34,003 nucleotides of DNA from assembly GCA_030746535.1 (NCBI GenBank), contig JASLML010000016.1, forward strand, positions 1 to 34,003. The letters run 5' to 3'. Positions 476 to 18,984 of the stretch are shown piece by piece (positions within the stretch are counted from its first letter, which is position 1; every line of letters starts with the position of its first letter). The notes beneath the pieces are model-generated. The model saw nothing but the letters and a program-made list of their open reading frames with translations. It ran no database searches and was not told the origin of the DNA. The translations under genes and the position numbers were made by a program. This stretch comes from Fidelibacterota bacterium (GTDB taxonomy: Bacteria; Fidelibacterota; Marinisomatia; Marinisomatales; TCS55).

Positions 476-521
476 TTGTTTACGACGAGAAAAGCAGGTA
501 ATTTCCCAAGCTTTTTTCGAA
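476..521 (+). promoter_or_regulatory. Candidate promoter and conserved element upstream of ffh
   Basis: A -35-like TTGTTT (476-481) is followed after exactly 17 bp by a -10-like TAATTT (499-504). From 495 to 521 the sequence matches 24 of 27 positions of the region upstream of yicC (13007-13033), including CAGGTAA at the left and TTTTTTCGAA at the right. The element ends 10 bp before the ffh ATG. There is no clear Shine-Dalgarno between it and the start codon. The sigma-70-like reading is my inference; the shared sequence is directly visible. Confidence 0.45.
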
Positions 522-531
522 CCTATTTATC

Positions 532-1863
532 ATGTTTGAACAATTATCAGACAAATTAGATGCAGTTCTGAGGAATATCCGCGGGCTGGGCAAGATCTCT
601 GAAAAGAATATTAAGGAATCTTCACGCCAGATCCGCCGTGCTTTGCTGGATGCAGACGTGCATGTGGATGTTGCAAAGGATTTCATTAAGCGCGTTGAAA
701 AACGTGCCCTTGGAACAACCGTTACCCAGTCGGTAAAACCGGGAGAGCAGTTTGTAAAGATCCTACAAGATGAGCTAATTGGTCTGCTGGGTACCGGAGA
801 TACGTCCATTTCCTATGCCAAGCAGCTGCCAACGGTTATTTTGATGGCGGGCCTGCAGGGGGCCGGGAAAACCACCACATGCGCAAAATTAGCGCATAAA
901 TTAACAATTGAAGGCCAATCCGTACTACTTGTTGCAGCAGATATTTACCGTCCCGCGGCAATTGACCAGCTGAAAACGCTCGGAAAACAAATTGATATTC
1001 CGGTCTATTCGGAAGGGCACAAGGATCCTGTTGCCATTTGCGATAATGCCGTAAAGGAAGCCAAAGCAAATAAAACGCAGGTTGTCATTTTAGACACCGC
1101 CGGACGGCTTCACATCGACGGCGAAATGATGCAGGAGATTGAGGCAATATCGGATAAAGTGAAGCCGCATGAAACACTGTTCGTAGCAGATGGTATGACA
1201 GGCCAGGATGCTGTCAATTCGGCGAAAGCATTTTCGGAAGCGCTGGCGCTTAGCGGAACGGTGCTTACCAAGATGGACGGCGATGCGCGGGGAGGAGCAG
1301 CTGTGAGCATTGCGGAGATAACCGGTGTTCCGGTAAAATTCATCGGTATCAGCGAAAAAATGGACGGGCTGGATGTTTTTGATCCCAAACGGATCGCTGA
1401 TAGAATCCTTGGTATGGGCGATGTGGTATCGCTGGTGGAAAAAGCCGAAAAGGTAATGGATGCGAAAAAAGCGGAAAAACTTGAGGAAAAATTACAGAAA
1501 CAGTCATTCACGCTGGATGATTTCAAGGATCAGCTGAATCAATTGAGAAATATGGGGCCTTTGAACCAGCTGATGGGTATGATGCCCGGAATGAATAAAA
1601 AAATGCTGAAGGGCATGAATCTGGATGACAGGCACCTGATGTGGACCGAAGCGATCATCAATTCGATGACCCCGGCGGAACGGAACAATCCGAATATCAT
1701 AGATGGAAGCAGGCGCATGCGGATTGCAAAGGGATCCGGAAGAAACGTGCAGGAAGTGAATCAGCTGATAAAACAATATTTTGCATTGCAAAAAATGATG
1801 AAAAAAATGGGCAAAATGAAACTGCCCGCTGGACTGAACAACCCAATGATGGGTATACACTAA
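532..1863 (+). CDS. ffh: Signal recognition particle protein Ffh (SRP54)
   Basis: 443 residues, full family length. Ffh is the GTPase that with 4.5S/SRP RNA delivers nascent inner-membrane proteins to FtsY. The N domain covers residues 1-90. The G domain shows the P-loop GLQGAGKTTT (107-116), DTAGR (188-192) and TKMDGDARGG (246-255). The methionine-rich M domain (about 320-443) contains LMGMMPGM, the SGRNVQEVNQLIKQY helix and a Met/Lys-rich end, which bind signal peptides and RNA. The ATG at 532 matches the usual MFEQLSDKL start. No Shine-Dalgarno is obvious, unlike rpsP downstream. It is the first gene of the ffh-rpsP-khpA-rimM-trmD-rplS cluster, with rpsP starting 11 bp after its stop. Confidence 0.97.
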   Translation: MFEQLSDKLDAVLRNIRGLGKISEKNIKESSRQIRRALLDADVHVDVAKDFIKRVEKRALGTTVTQSVKPGEQFVKILQDELIGLLGTGDTSISYAKQLPTVILMAGLQGAGKTTTCAKLAHKLTIEGQSVLLVAADIYRPAAIDQLKTLGKQIDIPVYSEGHKDPVAICDNAVKEAKANKTQVVILDTAGRLHIDGEMMQEIEAISDKVKPHETLFVADGMTGQDAVNSAKAFSEALALSGTVLTKMDGDARGGAAVSIAEITGVPVKFIGISEKMDGLDVFDPKRIADRILGMGDVVSLVEKAEKVMDAKKAEKLEEKLQKQSFTLDDFKDQLNQLRNMGPLNQLMGMMPGMNKKMLKGMNLDDRHLMWTEAIINSMTPAERNNPNIIDGSRRMRIAKGSGRNVQEVNQLIKQYFALQKMMKKMGKMKLPAGLNNPMMGIH

Positions 1864-6091: not shown

Positions 6092-7450
6092 ATGCCTTCT
6101 GACAAGCTTAAATCGTTGCCTTCTGTATCTGAAGTCTTACTTGAATTAAATTCAGATAACGCATTACATAATAACTACATAAAATTTATAATCAACAAAC
6201 AATTGAAGGAATTTCGCAGTCAGGCGAAGGCGGGAAAGCTAACCCTGAAACGGCCGGAAATTCTGAAAAATATTCTCAATAAAATTCAATCCGCATCAGC
6301 CGGAACTTATCGGTCGGTCATTAATGGAACCGGCATTGTACTGCACACAGGATTTGGCCGTGCGCCGATATCCAAAAAGACTATCATGACCGCCGCAAAA
6401 AAAATGGAACAATATGCGAATTTGGAATTGGATATAGAGTCAGGCAAACGGGGAGAGCGTCTTGGACACATTAGAGAGAATCTTGCTTCCATCTGCGGCG
6501 CGGATGATGCCCTTGCCGTAAACAACAATGCAGCTGCTGTTTTCCTGAGTCTCAATACATTTGCTGAAGGAAAAGAAGTGATCGTTTCCCGCGGACAGGA
6601 AGTTGAGATCGGCGGATCGTTCCGAATTCCGGATGTTATTCGAAAAGCCGGATGTACGATGGTAGAGGTCGGCACAACAAACAGGACGAGGCTGGAAGAC
6701 TATCAAAAAGCGATCTCAAAGAATACAGCACTGCTGCTCTGGGTGCACACCAGCAATTATATTGTGAAAGGATTTACAGAATCCGTTCTCCTTTCTGATT
6801 TGGCCGCGCTCGGAAAAAAACACAAAATTCCAGTCCTTGCTGATGTTGGCAGCGGCGCTCTCGTGGATATGCAATCTCTTGAACTTCCTCGTGAGATTCC
6901 CGTTTCCGAAATCGTAAAAACCGGTGTGGATGCAGTCACATTCTCCGGTGATAAACTGCTCGGCGGACCGCAGTCCGGACTGATCGCCGGAAAGAAAAGA
7001 CACATTGCTTCCATCCATAAGAATCCGGTTTACCGTACCATGCGCTGTGATAAATGGACCATTGCATTGCTGGATGAAACATTGCGGAATTACGGAAATC
7101 CGTCGTCCAACCTGGCGCTGAGTTTATTGTCAGTTTCCAGGCAAACATTAAAAAAGTGTGCGGAAAAAATTCTGAAAGGCGTTTCAAAAAGCCGGCAGAA
7201 GTCACTAGGAATATCAATTGTTGATACAGAAACGGAAGCAGGAAGCGGTTCGCTTCCCGATACACGGCTCGAAAGTGCGGCAATCAAGTGCAGTCCGAAA
7301 AATGGTTCCGCATCTCAACTAGCTGCCGCCTTTCGTGTCTTAGAAACTCCGGTCATAGGTTACTGCTCAGGCCGGGCATTTTACATAGATTTAAAAGCCA
7401 TTCTTCCCGGACAGCACGCCGCAGTCACAGACGCCATCAACAAGGTGTAA
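6092..7450 (+). CDS. selA: L-seryl-tRNA(Sec) selenium transferase SelA
   Basis: 452 residues, close to the usual 460. This PLP enzyme converts Ser-tRNA(Sec) to Sec-tRNA(Sec) using selenophosphate. An N-terminal helical region (LPSVSEVLLEL) precedes the aminotransferase fold. The conserved GTGIVLHTGFGRAPIS and the PLP-lysine segment SGDKLLGGPQSGLIAG, with Lys288 as the Schiff-base residue, are clear. The ATG at 6092 follows GGT closely with no strong Shine-Dalgarno. selB starts 3 bp after the stop. The pair shows that the organism encodes selenocysteine. The SelD and tRNA(Sec) genes are not in the window. Confidence 0.96.
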   Translation: MPSDKLKSLPSVSEVLLELNSDNALHNNYIKFIINKQLKEFRSQAKAGKLTLKRPEILKNILNKIQSASAGTYRSVINGTGIVLHTGFGRAPISKKTIMTAAKKMEQYANLELDIESGKRGERLGHIRENLASICGADDALAVNNNAAAVFLSLNTFAEGKEVIVSRGQEVEIGGSFRIPDVIRKAGCTMVEVGTTNRTRLEDYQKAISKNTALLLWVHTSNYIVKGFTESVLLSDLAALGKKHKIPVLADVGSGALVDMQSLELPREIPVSEIVKTGVDAVTFSGDKLLGGPQSGLIAGKKRHIASIHKNPVYRTMRCDKWTIALLDETLRNYGNPSSNLALSLLSVSRQTLKKCAEKILKGVSKSRQKSLGISIVDTETEAGSGSLPDTRLESAAIKCSPKNGSASQLAAAFRVLETPVIGYCSGRAFYIDLKAILPGQHAAVTDAINKV

Positions 7451-7453
7451 TCC

Positions 7454-9316
7454 ATGAGCCAGCTTGTCATTGGAACGGCGGGGCATATTGATCATGGGAA
7501 AACGTCCCTTGTGGAAGCGCTTACCGGAACCAACACCGACAGCCTCGATGAAGAGCAGTCCAGAGGCATGACCATCAATCTTGGTTTCGCTTATCTCGAT
7601 GAATCTGTAACCATTATTGATGTTCCCGGTCACGAGAAATTCGTCCGTAATATGGTGGCCGGCGTTTCAAACATTGATGTTGCTCTTCTTGTCGTCGCTG
7701 CCGATGACGGCGTTATGCCGCAAACCAGAGAGCATATCCACATTTTATCGCACCTCGGCATTCCACGCTGTGTGGTTGCACTAACGAAATCTGACAGGGT
7801 AAATGATACAGACTGGATCGCACTTGTTTCAGCGGATATACAGGAATTGCTGAAGGATACTCCTTTTCCCAATACGCCGATCATTCCGACGTCAACGGTT
7901 ACCGGCGAAGGTATTGATGACATTCGAAAAGCGCTCATTTCCAAAACCGAATCAAGAGAAGCCAAAAAAGATTCTGATATTTTCCGCATGCCGATTGACA
8001 GGGTGTTCCATAAAAAAGGATTCGGTGTTGTCGTTACGGGAACGGTGTTATCCGGGACACTGGAAAAAGGCGATAGCATTGAAGTGCTTCCGGAAACTCT
8101 TAAAGTAAAAGTGCGCGGAATGCAAACGCATCTTGCCGAAACAGATAAGGTAAATACCGGCGATCGCGCCGCAGTGAATATCACAGGCATCGAAGCAGAT
8201 CAGCTTTGGCGCGGATGCGAATTACATTCGGTAGGATGGATGCAGTCGACACAGCGCATAGCTGTGAAGGTGACAATGCTGCCGGACACTCGCTGGAAGC
8301 TAAAAGATAAACAGCGTATCCGCCTCCATATCGGAACAGCAGAGGTTTTGGGAAGGGTTTCCATGTATGAAACAAAATCCATTGGGAAAGGCAATTCTAA
8401 TACTGTACTGGTAACGCTTGAAAAACCTGTATCTGCCGCGATGGATGATAAGGTAATCGTTCGGTCATATTCGCCTATGGACACTATTGCCGGCGGCGTT
8501 GTTCTCGATCCGCATCCGCCAAAGGGAGAAATAATTAGAAAATGGCTGAATGACCTTTCCGAAGATTCTGCTGGTAGGCTGAATCAGTGGGTGCTTTTTA
8601 ACCAGAAGAATCCGAAATCTGTTTTAGAATATGCTCGGCATTTCCATGTATCAGAAGCGGACATTCTATCCATTTCTGAAAAAGCCGATCTGCACATTGA
8701 GAACGGCCTGCTAATCCATCCGGATTCTGAAAGTGGACACAAAGAAAGCGTATTGAACTTTTTAACGGATTTTCACAGATCGAATCCTTACAAAAAATCT
8801 GTGAATGCGGATACCATTCAGTCCAAATTGAATTTGTCATCATCCGTTGTAAACTTGGTTCTGGCTGATTTGATTTCTGCAGGTAAAGCGAAGGAAGCGG
8901 CGTCCGGATTTGCATTGATAGATCACGAAGTGAAGTTGAACGAAGACGACAGAAAGAGTGCTGATGCCATTTCACAATGGATCAAAGGCCAGGGATTCCA
9001 GCTTTCAAAAACAAACGACATTATAGCAACCATAAAATTGGAACCGAAAAAAGCGCTTGAGCTGCTTCATATCCTAAAAGATGAAGGCGCCGTGGATATG
9101 GTCGGTGATTCCTTTTGGATACATTCGGACGTATCAAAATCTCTGCAAAATGAACTGCAGGCCTTTTTTAAACAGAATGACTCACTGGATGTGAATACCT
9201 TTAAGGGAATGACGGGAACGTCCCGAAAATCCGCAATACCGCTTCTTGAATTTTGCGACGGCAGAGGGTGGACCGACCGCAGCGGCAACATCCGCATAAA
9301 AGGGCATGACATCTGA
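7454..9316 (+). CDS. selB: Selenocysteine-specific translation elongation factor SelB
   Basis: 620 residues, typical. SelB delivers Sec-tRNA(Sec) to UGA codons by binding a SECIS hairpin in the mRNA. GTPase motifs are GHIDHGKT (10-17), RGMT (38-41), DVPGH (56-60) and TKSD (111-114). EF-Tu-like beta-barrel domains follow (HKKGFGVVVTGTVLSG), then a C-terminal half with winged-helix repeats that bind SECIS RNA (about 380-620). The stop overlaps the mutS start by one base (TGATG), so mutS is probably co-translated. No in-frame UGA selenoprotein was recognised nearby. Confidence 0.96.
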   Translation: MSQLVIGTAGHIDHGKTSLVEALTGTNTDSLDEEQSRGMTINLGFAYLDESVTIIDVPGHEKFVRNMVAGVSNIDVALLVVAADDGVMPQTREHIHILSHLGIPRCVVALTKSDRVNDTDWIALVSADIQELLKDTPFPNTPIIPTSTVTGEGIDDIRKALISKTESREAKKDSDIFRMPIDRVFHKKGFGVVVTGTVLSGTLEKGDSIEVLPETLKVKVRGMQTHLAETDKVNTGDRAAVNITGIEADQLWRGCELHSVGWMQSTQRIAVKVTMLPDTRWKLKDKQRIRLHIGTAEVLGRVSMYETKSIGKGNSNTVLVTLEKPVSAAMDDKVIVRSYSPMDTIAGGVVLDPHPPKGEIIRKWLNDLSEDSAGRLNQWVLFNQKNPKSVLEYARHFHVSEADILSISEKADLHIENGLLIHPDSESGHKESVLNFLTDFHRSNPYKKSVNADTIQSKLNLSSSVVNLVLADLISAGKAKEAASGFALIDHEVKLNEDDRKSADAISQWIKGQGFQLSKTNDIIATIKLEPKKALELLHILKDEGAVDMVGDSFWIHSDVSKSLQNELQAFFKQNDSLDVNTFKGMTGTSRKSAIPLLEFCDGRGWTDRSGNIRIKGHDI

Positions 9317-12986: not shown

Positions 12987-13033
12987 TTGTTCTAAAAGTA
13001 ATATCTCAGGTAAATTCCAAAGATTTTTTCGAA
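12987..13033 (+). promoter_or_regulatory. Candidate promoter and conserved element upstream of yicC
   Basis: TTGTTC (12987-12992) and TAAATT (13011-13016), 18 bp apart, form a -35/-10-like pair. Positions 13007-13033 match the element upstream of ffh (495-521) at 24 of 27 bases without gaps. The element ends 5 bp before the first possible yicC ATG. This is the only noticeable intergenic gap ahead of the long yicC-to-DUF4321 gene run, so it plausibly drives that run. The promoter reading is inference. Confidence 0.45.
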
Positions 13034-13038
13034 AGTAA

Positions 13039-13902
13039 ATGATGATTAAGAGTATGACAGGATTCGGCCGCGGAAGTGTATCCGCATCCGGAAGGCACAT
13101 TACCGCTCAGGTTCGGGCGGTAAACGGTCGCTTTCTAGACATTAAAATTCGCGGTATGGAATTGGATCCCTCCGTAGAACAGGAAATCCGGAAAATGCTG
13201 TCCGATTCCCTTCAGCGTGGAACCATCGCGCTGTCCATCAAATCGGTCAGCCAGAATGGTTCGGGTGGTTTGGTGTTCAACCGAGCGAAAATGAAATCCA
13301 TCGCTGATGCGGTTGCATCGGTCGAAAAAGAATTTGATGTCAGTATTTCTTTAGGGGATGTAATTCGCGCAGATGATCTTTTCAGTACTTCAGAAGAAGG
13401 AGAGACGCAAATGGACGGTGTGGCGGAAGCCGTCAAAAAAGCATGTGCGCAGGCGGAGAAAATGCGGAAAGCAGAAGGGAAAAAATTATACAAGGATTTG
13501 AAAAGCCGAACTGCCGTGATCAAACGATCCCTGAAAAATTTGAAAAAGCTTGCAGACTCTGAAACAAAATCGCGGTCAAAAAAATATGCATCCAAGGTTA
13601 AGGATCTTGCCGGCGGAATCGAAATTGACGGAAACAGGATGATTCAGGAAATTGCCATCCTAGCAGAAAAAGCGGATGTAACAGAAGAAGTGGTGCGCAT
13701 TGACAGCCACATGGAACAGTTTACCGAATTGCTCAATACGTACGGACAGGTTGGCAAGCGTCTCAATTTTATCCTGCAGGAAGTGGGGCGTGAGGTGAAT
13801 ACAGTTGGATCAAAAATTACATCTGACACCGGTGTGAACAGAGTTGTCGGAATGAAAAATGAACTAGAACGAATGCGTGAACAGGTGCAAAATGTCTTAT
13901 GA
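13039..13902 (+). CDS. YicC family protein (endoribonuclease family)
   Basis: 287 residues. It starts with the family signature MIKSMTGFGRG and contains VRAVNGRFLDIKIR. It ends with the DUF1732 C-terminal region: QEIAILAEKADVTEEVVRID, HMEQF, GKRLNFILQEVGREVNT and the closing MKNELERMREQVQNVL. The family includes E. coli YicC, described as an RNase/RNase adaptor that affects small-RNA turnover. The start may be ATG 13039 or the adjacent in-frame ATG 13042. Its stop overlaps gmk by 4 bp; yicC next to gmk is a common arrangement. Confidence 0.93.
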   Translation: MMIKSMTGFGRGSVSASGRHITAQVRAVNGRFLDIKIRGMELDPSVEQEIRKMLSDSLQRGTIALSIKSVSQNGSGGLVFNRAKMKSIADAVASVEKEFDVSISLGDVIRADDLFSTSEEGETQMDGVAEAVKKACAQAEKMRKAEGKKLYKDLKSRTAVIKRSLKNLKKLADSETKSRSKKYASKVKDLAGGIEIDGNRMIQEIAILAEKADVTEEVVRIDSHMEQFTELLNTYGQVGKRLNFILQEVGREVNTVGSKITSDTGVNRVVGMKNELERMREQVQNVL

Positions 13903-15427: not shown

Positions 15428-16792
15428 ATGGCAGAAAATCAGGAGCAGATTCTAAACGTTCAGCCGCAGTCTAATGAAGCGGAACAGGCTGTGCTTGGCG
15501 CTATGCTTTCCAGCAAAGAGGCGGTAAGCAAGGTGCTGCAATGGATAACCGATGTGCATTTTTATAGGGAAGCGCATGCAAAAATATTTCGCGCAATGAT
15601 TCAGATGTTCAACGAAGGAGAACCGGTGGATACGGTATCGATCGTAAATCAGCTGAAAAAACAAAAAGAACTGGAGAATGTTGGTGGTGCATACTACATC
15701 ACCGGTTTGGTAGAATCTGTTCCGACGACAGCAAATGTTGAGCATTATGCCAAAATTGTCCTTGAAAAAGCAATGCTCAGGGAATTGATCAGAATTTCAC
15801 ATGATTTGACCAAAAATGCCTACGATGACAGGCAGGACGTTGATGATATCATGGATGCTGCAGAGCAGGCAATATTTTCTATTACGCAGGGCCGCCTGCG
15901 CGGCGGGTTTGAACAGTTGGACCCGATTCTTCAGGAAACCTTTGAGAACCTCGATAAGATTCATTCTTCCGGAGGAACGGTGACCGGTGTGCCGACAGGA
16001 TTGCTTGATCTGGATGAAATGACTTCCGGTTTTCAAAAGGGCGAATTGATCGTATTGGCCGGACGGCCGGGAATGGGAAAAACTGCACTTGCACTGACCA
16101 TAGCTCGGAACGCCGCTATAGATCATCAGAAATCTGTCGGGTTTTTCAGTCTGGAAATGGCGAGCCACCAGCTTGCTATGCGTATGCTCTGCGCCGAGGC
16201 ACGGGTGGATTCGCATCTCGTCCGAACCGGGAAACTGCCAAAATCGCAATGGCAAAATTTGAGTGTGTCTGTCGGGACACTTGCGGAAGCGCCGATGTAT
16301 CTCGATGATACTCCGTCCATCGGTATATTGGAATTACGTGCAAAAGCAAGGCGCCTGATGGCGGAACATGATATCGGCATGCTGATGATTGATTATCTCC
16401 AGCTTATGTCGGGGCCGAAAGGCGTGGAAAACCGCCAGCAAGAAATTTCGGTCATCTCTCGGTCTCTCAAGGCACTGGCAAAAGAATTGAACATTCCTGT
16501 AGTCGCGCTATCGCAGCTTTCGCGTGCAACGGAACAGCGCAGCGATCGACGGCCTCAGCTGTCTGATCTGCGCGAGAGCGGAGCTATAGAACAGGATGCT
16601 GATGTTGTTATGTTTGTGTATCGCCCCTATGTTTACAGCAGAGATGAGGACGACCGGGGGAAAGTGGAACTGCTCTTATCCAAGCAGCGTAACGGCCCCA
16701 CAGGAAATATAAATCTTACATTTATCGATAGATACGCTCGATTCGAAAATCTTACGACATTTTCAGATTTGGAAGCTGAGGTTCCCTTCTAA
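15428..16792 (+). CDS. dnaB: Replicative DNA helicase DnaB
   Basis: 454 residues, normal. The N-terminal primase-interaction domain starts at NEAEQAVLGAMLSSKEA and includes GGAYYITGLVESVPTTANVE. The RecA-like motor has Walker A GRPGMGKT (212-219), FFSLEMASHQLAMRML, the Walker B-like IGMLMIDYLQLMSG, ALSQLSRATEQRSDRRPQLS with the DLRESGAIEQDAD segment, and KQRNGPTG near the end. No intein is inserted at the P-loop, a frequent site. The stop overlaps the rel start by one base (TAATG). Confidence 0.97.
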   Translation: MAENQEQILNVQPQSNEAEQAVLGAMLSSKEAVSKVLQWITDVHFYREAHAKIFRAMIQMFNEGEPVDTVSIVNQLKKQKELENVGGAYYITGLVESVPTTANVEHYAKIVLEKAMLRELIRISHDLTKNAYDDRQDVDDIMDAAEQAIFSITQGRLRGGFEQLDPILQETFENLDKIHSSGGTVTGVPTGLLDLDEMTSGFQKGELIVLAGRPGMGKTALALTIARNAAIDHQKSVGFFSLEMASHQLAMRMLCAEARVDSHLVRTGKLPKSQWQNLSVSVGTLAEAPMYLDDTPSIGILELRAKARRLMAEHDIGMLMIDYLQLMSGPKGVENRQQEISVISRSLKALAKELNIPVVALSQLSRATEQRSDRRPQLSDLRESGAIEQDADVVMFVYRPYVYSRDEDDRGKVELLLSKQRNGPTGNINLTFIDRYARFENLTTFSDLEAEVPF

Positions 16793-18984
16793 TGCAGAAC
16801 CCGCTTGCACGGTTCGTGCCAAAGCTTGCAGGCGAATATCCGAAATCATTCCTGAAATTGTATGATCAGGTTTCGGTTCCGAATGGCATGGATCCCGAAG
16901 ATGTGAAGGAAATTTTGTGGAAGGCGTACGAATATGGAGACCGCCACCACGAAGGCCAAAAGCGCAAATCCGGTGCGCCGTATTTTGAGCATTGCATCGC
17001 GGTTGCCGAAATACTCGCTTCGTGGAATATGGATCCAACCATGATCATGGGCGGCCTGCTTCATGATACGGTTGAGGATACAAAAGCTTCTCATGATGAC
17101 CTTGCTGAAAATTTCGGTGAGGATGTTGCTGTTCTCGTGGAGGGAGTGACCAAACTCGGCGATATTGAATTTTCTACGCGGCAGGAACAGCAGGCCGGGA
17201 ATTTCATGAAAATGCTACTTTCCGTGGCAAAGGACATTCGGGTAATCATTATCAAATTCGCAGATCGGCTTCACAATATGCGTACCATTGAGTATATACC
17301 GCGCATCAAACAGCACCGCATAGCCATAGAAACGCGGGATGTTTATTCTCCGCTAGCCCACCGGCTTGGAATGGCAAAAGTAAAATGGCAGCTGGATGAT
17401 TTGGTGTTTAAAACATTGAACCCCAAGGCCTATAAAGAAATTGATTCCAAACTAAAGTCCACAACAAAAGAGCGTGAACGCTACATTAAAAAAGTAACAA
17501 CTGCCCTTAACAAAGAATTATCCGCCTATGATTTAAAGGCAGATGTGTATGGAAGGCCTAAATCCCATCATTCGATTTACAAAAAAATGATTTCACAGGA
17601 TAAAACATTTGATGAAATATATGACAAAGAAGCAATCAGGGTGATCGTTGATAAGATGGAAGATTGCTATCTTACTTTGGGCGTGATTCATCAGAATTAC
17701 AATCCGGTTCAGGAACGATTCAAAGATTTTATTGCCACTCCTAAATCAAACGCCTATCAATCCATTCATACCACAGTTGTAGGGCCGGAAAAACAGCTGG
17801 TAGAGATTCAGATTAGAACGGCAGACATGGAAGCTACGGCGGAGATCGGTGTTGCTGCACACTGGCGCTATAAAGAAGGTAAAGGAAGTGATACCAAGGA
17901 AATAGATTCGCAGGTGGGTTGGCTCAGGGAATTATTGGAGATATTAAGAAGCGAAGAGAGCGATCCCCGTGAATTCATGCATTTGCTAAAAATCGACCTT
18001 TTCAGTGATGAAATATTTGTTTTTACGCCTAAAGGCGCATTGGTGCAGCTGCCTGTTTCATCCACGCCGATCGATTTTGCATTTAAGGTTCATACCGAGG
18101 TTGGCATGAAATGCTTAGGAGCAAAGGTCAATCATGTAGTGGTGCCGCTGAACACCGAACTGAAGAACGGTGATTTGGTGGAGATTATCACTGGCAAGAA
18201 TCAAAACCCGAATTACGGCTGGCTAAAATTTGTTGTTACGTCCAAGGCACGAAATAAAATTAACCGCTTTCTTAAACAGTCCAATATTGAAGCAAGTTTA
18301 AAGCTGGGAGAAGAAATCCTGGTCAAAACTCTGAGGCGTTTAAAAAAGCTTGGTCTTAAAAAAGAGATTAAATCCTCATTTCAGAAATTTGGATTCCAGA
18401 ACGAAGATCAGCTGCTGGAGGCAATCGGAAATGGATCGTTAACGGTAAGAAAAATTTTCGAAAAAATCGCACCCGATACCAATCCCGAATTCGATTTGAA
18501 AGAAGAAAAGCCCTCACGTTTCAGCTTTACCGGAAAAGGGAAAAAAAGCGTCCAGCTTCAGGGAATTAAGGATGTGATGGTGTCATTCGGCAAATGTTGC
18601 AATCCGATTCCCGGAGATGAAATGCTAGGATTTATTACTCGAGGACGAGGGCTCACGGTCCACCGTTCAACCTGCTCGAGCCTCCCGCTGCTCAATGAAC
18701 AAAAAGACAGGCTCGTTCCGGTTGACTGGGATGTAGCCAAAACGGACCTTTTCAATGTCCGCTTAAAGATAACGGGACAGGACAGGAAGGGTATTTTAAA
18801 AGACCTCACGGAATCCATTTCTTCGCAAAACATCAATATCAAAAGCGTGGATATGAGGGGGAAAGATTCGGTTGCCACCGCGCATTTCATTGTCCAGGTG
18901 AATAATATCCGCCAGCTTGACCGCATCATCCGGAAAATTAAAAAGGTAAATGGTGTGGATCATATTGAGCGGGCGGAACGTTAA
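16792..18984 (+). CDS. Bifunctional (p)ppGpp synthetase/hydrolase (Rel/SpoT)
   Basis: 730 residues with the full long-RSH layout. The HD hydrolase domain contains LLHDTVEDT (His91-Asp92). The synthetase domain includes KSHHSIYKKM, DKEAIRVIVD and YQSIHTTVVGP. TGS follows at about 400-460, then a helical/zinc-finger region with CCNPIPGDE (Cys602-603), and a C-terminal ACT domain (RKGILKDLTESISSQNINI). The synthetase carries RFKD (309-312), the RXKD type associated with bifunctional enzymes rather than the EXDD of synthetase-only RelA. Both activities are therefore predicted. It is the stringent-response hub of an operon that also encodes Gmk and omega. Confidence 0.96.
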   Translation: MQNPLARFVPKLAGEYPKSFLKLYDQVSVPNGMDPEDVKEILWKAYEYGDRHHEGQKRKSGAPYFEHCIAVAEILASWNMDPTMIMGGLLHDTVEDTKASHDDLAENFGEDVAVLVEGVTKLGDIEFSTRQEQQAGNFMKMLLSVAKDIRVIIIKFADRLHNMRTIEYIPRIKQHRIAIETRDVYSPLAHRLGMAKVKWQLDDLVFKTLNPKAYKEIDSKLKSTTKERERYIKKVTTALNKELSAYDLKADVYGRPKSHHSIYKKMISQDKTFDEIYDKEAIRVIVDKMEDCYLTLGVIHQNYNPVQERFKDFIATPKSNAYQSIHTTVVGPEKQLVEIQIRTADMEATAEIGVAAHWRYKEGKGSDTKEIDSQVGWLRELLEILRSEESDPREFMHLLKIDLFSDEIFVFTPKGALVQLPVSSTPIDFAFKVHTEVGMKCLGAKVNHVVVPLNTELKNGDLVEIITGKNQNPNYGWLKFVVTSKARNKINRFLKQSNIEASLKLGEEILVKTLRRLKKLGLKKEIKSSFQKFGFQNEDQLLEAIGNGSLTVRKIFEKIAPDTNPEFDLKEEKPSRFSFTGKGKKSVQLQGIKDVMVSFGKCCNPIPGDEMLGFITRGRGLTVHRSTCSSLPLLNEQKDRLVPVDWDVAKTDLFNVRLKITGQDRKGILKDLTESISSQNINIKSVDMRGKDSVATAHFIVQVNNIRQLDRIIRKIKKVNGVDHIERAER

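Follow-up and report, generated by a model that had tools for sequence, protein, structure and literature searches.

In Bacteroidota, the primary sigma factor, sigma-A, uses a TAnnTTTG box at -12 to -5 (PMC9723704) and a TTTG near -33 (PMC7366714). Open complexes tend to be less stable the richer the discriminator is in G+C, and this G+C content is one of the determinants of control by DksA and (p)ppGpp (PMC10232725). On the promoters of Neomarinimicrobiota themselves, no paper was found in the literature searched.

Here, we propose that a 27-bp element, present twice in the window (the whole stretch of 34,003 bp analysed here), is in each copy the downstream half of a Bacteroidota-like sigma-A promoter serving translation-related operons, consisting of the -7 box, the discriminator and the start region. 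We put the probability of this reading at roughly three in four. As with the Bacteroidota primary sigma-A promoters, a TTG lies about 20 bp upstream of TAnnTT, and many tRNA promoters of the family carry the full TAnnTTTG form (TAAATTTG or TAATTTTG); unlike them, the window copies read TAnnTTYC, and the discriminator and a start region RCTTTWTTYGA are conserved in a translation-gene subset. With the E. coli rrn P1-type stringent promoters the class shares its gene set (tRNA, rRNA, ribosomal proteins, tuf) and a discriminator that tends to be G+C-rich, but its -10/-33 consensus is a different one and its T-rich initially transcribed region is conserved. The element marks a promoter class and not a new category: it is a lineage-specific variant of the translation-gene promoter, and the class assignment is strongly supported.

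The two copies and the parts of their proposed promoters

The copies, CAGGTAATTTCCCAAGCTTTTTTCGAA at 495-521 before ffh and CAGGTAAATTCCAAAGATTTTTTCGAA at 13007-13033 before yicC, are identical at 24 of 27 positions, with mismatches at 502, 507 and 511, exactly as the earlier note had described. The TTGTTY that it placed 17-18 bp from a TAAWTT is present at both, with TTGTTT (476-481) lying 17 bp from TAATTT (499-504) before ffh and TTGTTC (12987-12992) lying 18 bp from TAAATT (13011-13016) before yicC. In the window, no other two 27-mers on the forward strand agree at 24 or more positions, save within one low-complexity gene region (the Ala/Glu-rich tail of S16); in 16 simulated windows (order-1 Markov, same dinucleotide make-up) no such pair arose. 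The observation of the element is right and meaningful. Its distance to the start codon, originally given as 5-10 bp, is 10 bp at ffh and is refined to a likely 8 bp at yicC: the codon aligned with ATG 13039 is ATT in both same-genus relatives and the next codon is ATG, so the yicC start is more likely 13042 than 13039. The parts of the two promoters, with the genes behind them, are as follows.

476..478, + strand: TTG at 20 bp from the -7 box, putative -33 element of the ffh promoter; its columns rank with the best conserved ones upstream of 21 ffh orthologues
499..506, + strand: TAATTTCC, putative -7 box (TAnnTTTG-like) of the ffh promoter, from sequence and orthologue alignment
505..510, + strand: CCCAAG (G+C 4/6), ffh discriminator between the -7 box and the inferred start, from orthologue comparison and tRNA promoters
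510..521, + strand: GCTTTTTTCGAA, inferred ffh transcription start region; by the Bacteroidota sigma-A register transcription would begin within RCT (510-512), the GCT being invariant in 21 aligned ffh regions
532..1863, + strand: ffh (SRP54), leading the run ffh-rpsP-rimM-trmD-rplS (Pfam SRP54, S16, RimM, tRNA_m1G_MT, L19)
12987..12989, + strand: TTG at 21 bp from the -7 box, putative -33 element of the yicC promoter; kept in yicC orthologues
13011..13018, + strand: TAAATTCC, putative -7 box of the yicC promoter, from sequence and orthologue alignment
13017..13022, + strand: CCAAAG (G+C 3/6), discriminator of the yicC promoter, from sequence and orthologue regions
13022..13033, + strand: GATTTTTTCGAA, inferred transcription start region of the yicC operon, from sequence and orthologue alignment; transcription would begin, in the same register, within 13022-13024
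13042..13902, + strand: yicC, with its likely start from alignment, leading the run yicC-gmk-rpoZ-UDG-dnaB-rel (Pfam YicC, Guanylate_kin, RNA_pol_Rpb6, UDG, DnaB, RelA_SpoT)
16792..18984, + strand: Rel/SpoT-type (p)ppGpp synthetase-hydrolase (HD, RelA_SpoT, TGS, ACT), in the same-strand run downstream of the yicC promoter

The layout would comprise TTG at about -33, TAnnTT(T/C) at about -12 to -5, a short and mostly G+C-rich discriminator, and the RCTTTWTTYGA start region. Both -7 boxes keep TAnnTT, and the final G of TAnnTTTG is absent from the window copies. Two further features of the ffh side of the window may be recorded separately. The rpsP product, S16 (2231-2990), has a long, repetitive Ala/Glu/Pro-rich C-terminal extension of roughly 250-300 residues, and selA and selB occur together downstream of the ffh operon (6092-9316), which points to selenocysteine use.

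Conservation, range and the genes behind the proposed promoter

For the family, 21 ffh and 30 yicC orthologues were compared upstream, the motif having played no role in their choice. A block recurs there that consists of TTG, a spacing of about 20 bp, TAAWTT, some six bases that are often G+C-rich, and RCTTTWTTYGA or a close variant. It was found in nearly all ffh regions and, genus g4 and part of g8 apart, in most yicC regions. In the ffh alignment (n=21) the columns TA, TT and GCT vary little or not at all, and the element stands 9-10 nt from the ATG in 17 of the 21 regions; alignment by best motif score inflates the conservation somewhat, but the fixed distance to the ATG is independent of the alignment. 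The ffh genes of Neomarinimicrobiota outside the family (L171-L175) also carry the block, e.g. CTAATTTCCCGAGCTATTTTCGAATCGGAAACACATG. Absence of the element before ffh and yicC in close relatives had been looked for as a refutation; it is present there and the idea stands. Likewise borne out by these regions is the suggestion that conservation reaches past the -10 box. The G+C richness of the discriminator is a tendency only, because some members of the class are A+T-rich at this point (TTATAAG before ffh of genus g3, TTATTGG before rpsL).

At no more than 3 mismatches the 27-mer has two copies only in the genome of the window (G000, a Candidatus Neomarinimicrobiota MAG; 1.47 Mb, 85% complete; covered by pattern searches and about 0.4 Mb of sequence stretches), and the same-genus genome G002 likewise has exactly two, at orthologous places. 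An isolated two-copy element was nevertheless rejected, as more divergent members occur genome-wide and family-wide. With the 22-mer pattern TAAWTTYCCNRRCTTTWTTCGA at no more than 2 mismatches, and the reversed pattern as control, the 40 family genomes gave 115 sites against 13 for the control, with 33 against 14 in the same order outside the family, 9 against 2 in the same class and 27 against 16 in the rest of the phylum. No site (against 8 for the control) was found in thirteen Flavobacteriales and Fibrobacterota genomes, while five Neomarinimicrobiota genomes searched alongside them gave 18 against 3. The promoter form therefore belongs to the Neomarinimicrobiota lineage, being strongest in the family and weaker with distance.

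What genes, then, lie behind it? In the genome of the window a gene follows directly on each of the five sites; behind them stand ffh, yicC, rplM, a tRNA-tuf operon and an aldehyde-dehydrogenase-family gene. Among 70 sites inspected (L112 and L153 being one and the same site), 25 are directly 5' of tRNAs, among them the tRNA-Thr-Tyr-Gly-Thr set before tuf, and a further 21 lie before ffh, yicC, rplM, rplU, rpmB, secD, a sigma-70 gene or a DUF4295 gene, so that tRNA or translation, secretion and transcription genes stand behind 46 of the 70. About one third of the sites precede other genes, the remainder of which, beyond nine before a single aldehyde-dehydrogenase family, is mixed or uncertain. 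That family (L128, L109, L110, L132 and others) is the most frequent non-translation gene with the promoter. One representative of each gene family was identified by Pfam and the others from matching N-terminal sequence. Since the search pattern requires a T-rich start, the 70-site list cannot show conservation of the start region, for which the ffh and yicC sets serve. In G004, rpsL (named from its N-terminus, MPTINQLIRKGR) carries GGTAATTTTATTGGCTTTTTTAGAA, and in several genera the 16S rRNA upstream regions have a related form, e.g. TTGACACAGTACAACTTAAAGAATTAATTTTACAGGCTTTGC and TTGAC..TTAATTTTACAGGCTTTGC. In the family, operons encoding the machinery of translation, secretion and transcription would share this promoter form with tRNA genes, and rRNA would have a related one.

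A short hairpin is possible at the inferred 5' end of the rRNA leader (L292, L293, L294, L296, L301, L302), e.g. GGCTGTCTTAGACAGC, directly at the start region and about 130 to 100 bases before 16S, with arms that vary between genera. At L063:5976-6647 and on L107, tRNA-Ser genes are preceded by a small, basic protein whose acidic tail is variable and whose promoter is of similar form; it is a DUF4295 protein on L107 and has a similar N-terminus on L063.

The tRNA genes of G004, chosen by tRNA search alone and without the motif, often have promoters of the form TAAWTTTG or TAAWTTCG, then G+C-rich bases and then an A/T-rich stretch. The discriminators of these G004 promoters have a G+C fraction of 0.64, compared with 0.39 for the other promoter-like hits of G004 (one-sided P=0.02), in groups that are small and imperfect, the comparison group holding false positives because the bare TTG/TAnnTT scan of protein-gene upstream regions is noisy (19 forward against 14 reverse hits in G000). 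Several tRNA promoters are without the T-rich start.

Alternative readings of the conserved start region

Against the promoter reading is the fact that ordinary discriminator theory does not need a conserved start region. It is possible, if on the unlikely side, that the initially transcribed RCTTTWTTYGA is itself regulatory in Neomarinimicrobiota, being read by RNA polymerase or by a start-site factor and jointly setting how strongly translation, secretion and tRNA operons are expressed, in a manner distinct from discriminator control.

Less probable is a dedicated transcription factor that binds the block past the -10 box and coordinates the translation genes, either blocking RNA polymerase at the start or assisting it there. 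While a start region conserved beyond promoter need and a coherent gene set would suit such a factor, the TTCGAA of the window becomes TTATTGAG, TTTCGGAC or TTCTGGAA elsewhere, and the block keeps one fixed offset from the -7 box, like part of a core promoter. Inspection of about 50 orthologous upstream regions found no conserved dyad or direct repeat; with no dyad kept across genera an operator is unlikely, and the operator listed in the earlier note is, as a site for a dimer, not supported.

E. coli has pyrimidine-controlled promoters that work by reiterative transcription or start-site switching, and the T-run at the start could make initiation sensitive to UTP or CTP in the same way, so that the translation genes track nucleotide supply. 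As at E. coli codBA, upp and pyrBI, a T-run lies just past the inferred start in the window copies, where R-C-T6 sits at that start, and GATTTTTTCG of yicC is, we presume, similar to the starts of codBA and upp. Both window copies have the run unbroken, but many orthologous promoters carry other bases within it (CTTTATTCG, CTTTTATTGA, CTATTTTCG, CTCTTCTCAG), which means that a slippery homopolymer is not the conserved feature; moreover, the genes here are not pyrimidine genes. With the T-run so often broken, control by slippage is improbable, and we rate it below the transcription factor.

The earlier note had also raised a sigma-factor-specific promoter, of which the promoter part is supported. 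That an alternative sigma factor recognises the class is very unlikely: the gene set is coherent and the consensus distinct, but the boxes agree with TTG/TAnnTTTG, the primary-sigma consensus of the Bacteroidota type, the genes concerned are housekeeping genes and tRNAs, and the sigma-54 pattern (GG-N10-GC) was not seen. We give scarcely any credence to an RNA leader element that affects translation or the stability of the mRNA, for which the near-constant distance to the ffh ATG and a short hairpin possible in some leaders could be cited, since predicted folding is on average barely better than that of shuffled sequence (mean z -0.3) with no consistent fold, and the element also precedes untranslated tRNA genes, which argues against a translational role. 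Rfam gave no match in the window at gathering thresholds. Finally, a small dispersed repeat of REP or MITE type is not supported, as there are two copies at no more than 3 mismatches, and the looser-pattern sites are few per genome, lie at promoters, mostly before genes, and have unrelated flanks. From the interpretations first offered, a promoter with a conserved start region is what survives.

Proposed control and what it would mean

If the element is part of a sigma-A-like promoter, how might the class be controlled? A G+C-rich discriminator would give a short-lived open complex, so that output should track growth rate and drop when (p)ppGpp rises, as it does at stringent promoters elsewhere. 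Stringent control is plausible on sequence grounds because discriminator G+C is one determinant of DksA/(p)ppGpp control and because all 6 genomes tested have rel (in the window it lies downstream of yicC) and 4 of the 6 have a DksA/TraR zinc finger, to which there was no match in the 85% complete G000. The likeness to stringent promoters thus extends to the presence of rel here and of DksA/TraR-type proteins in the family, and growth-rate or stringent control of the class is probable, the part played by ppGpp being predicted. The two operons of the window would be the ffh and yicC runs, the latter with the alarmone enzyme gene; as rel lies in the same-strand run after dnaB, the alarmone gene may itself be driven by a promoter of putative stringent type.

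Neomarinimicrobiota are known mostly from metagenomes. A defined promoter consensus would allow the prediction of growth-linked operons in these uncultured marine bacteria, and in this promoter class conservation beyond the start of transcription can be put to the test.
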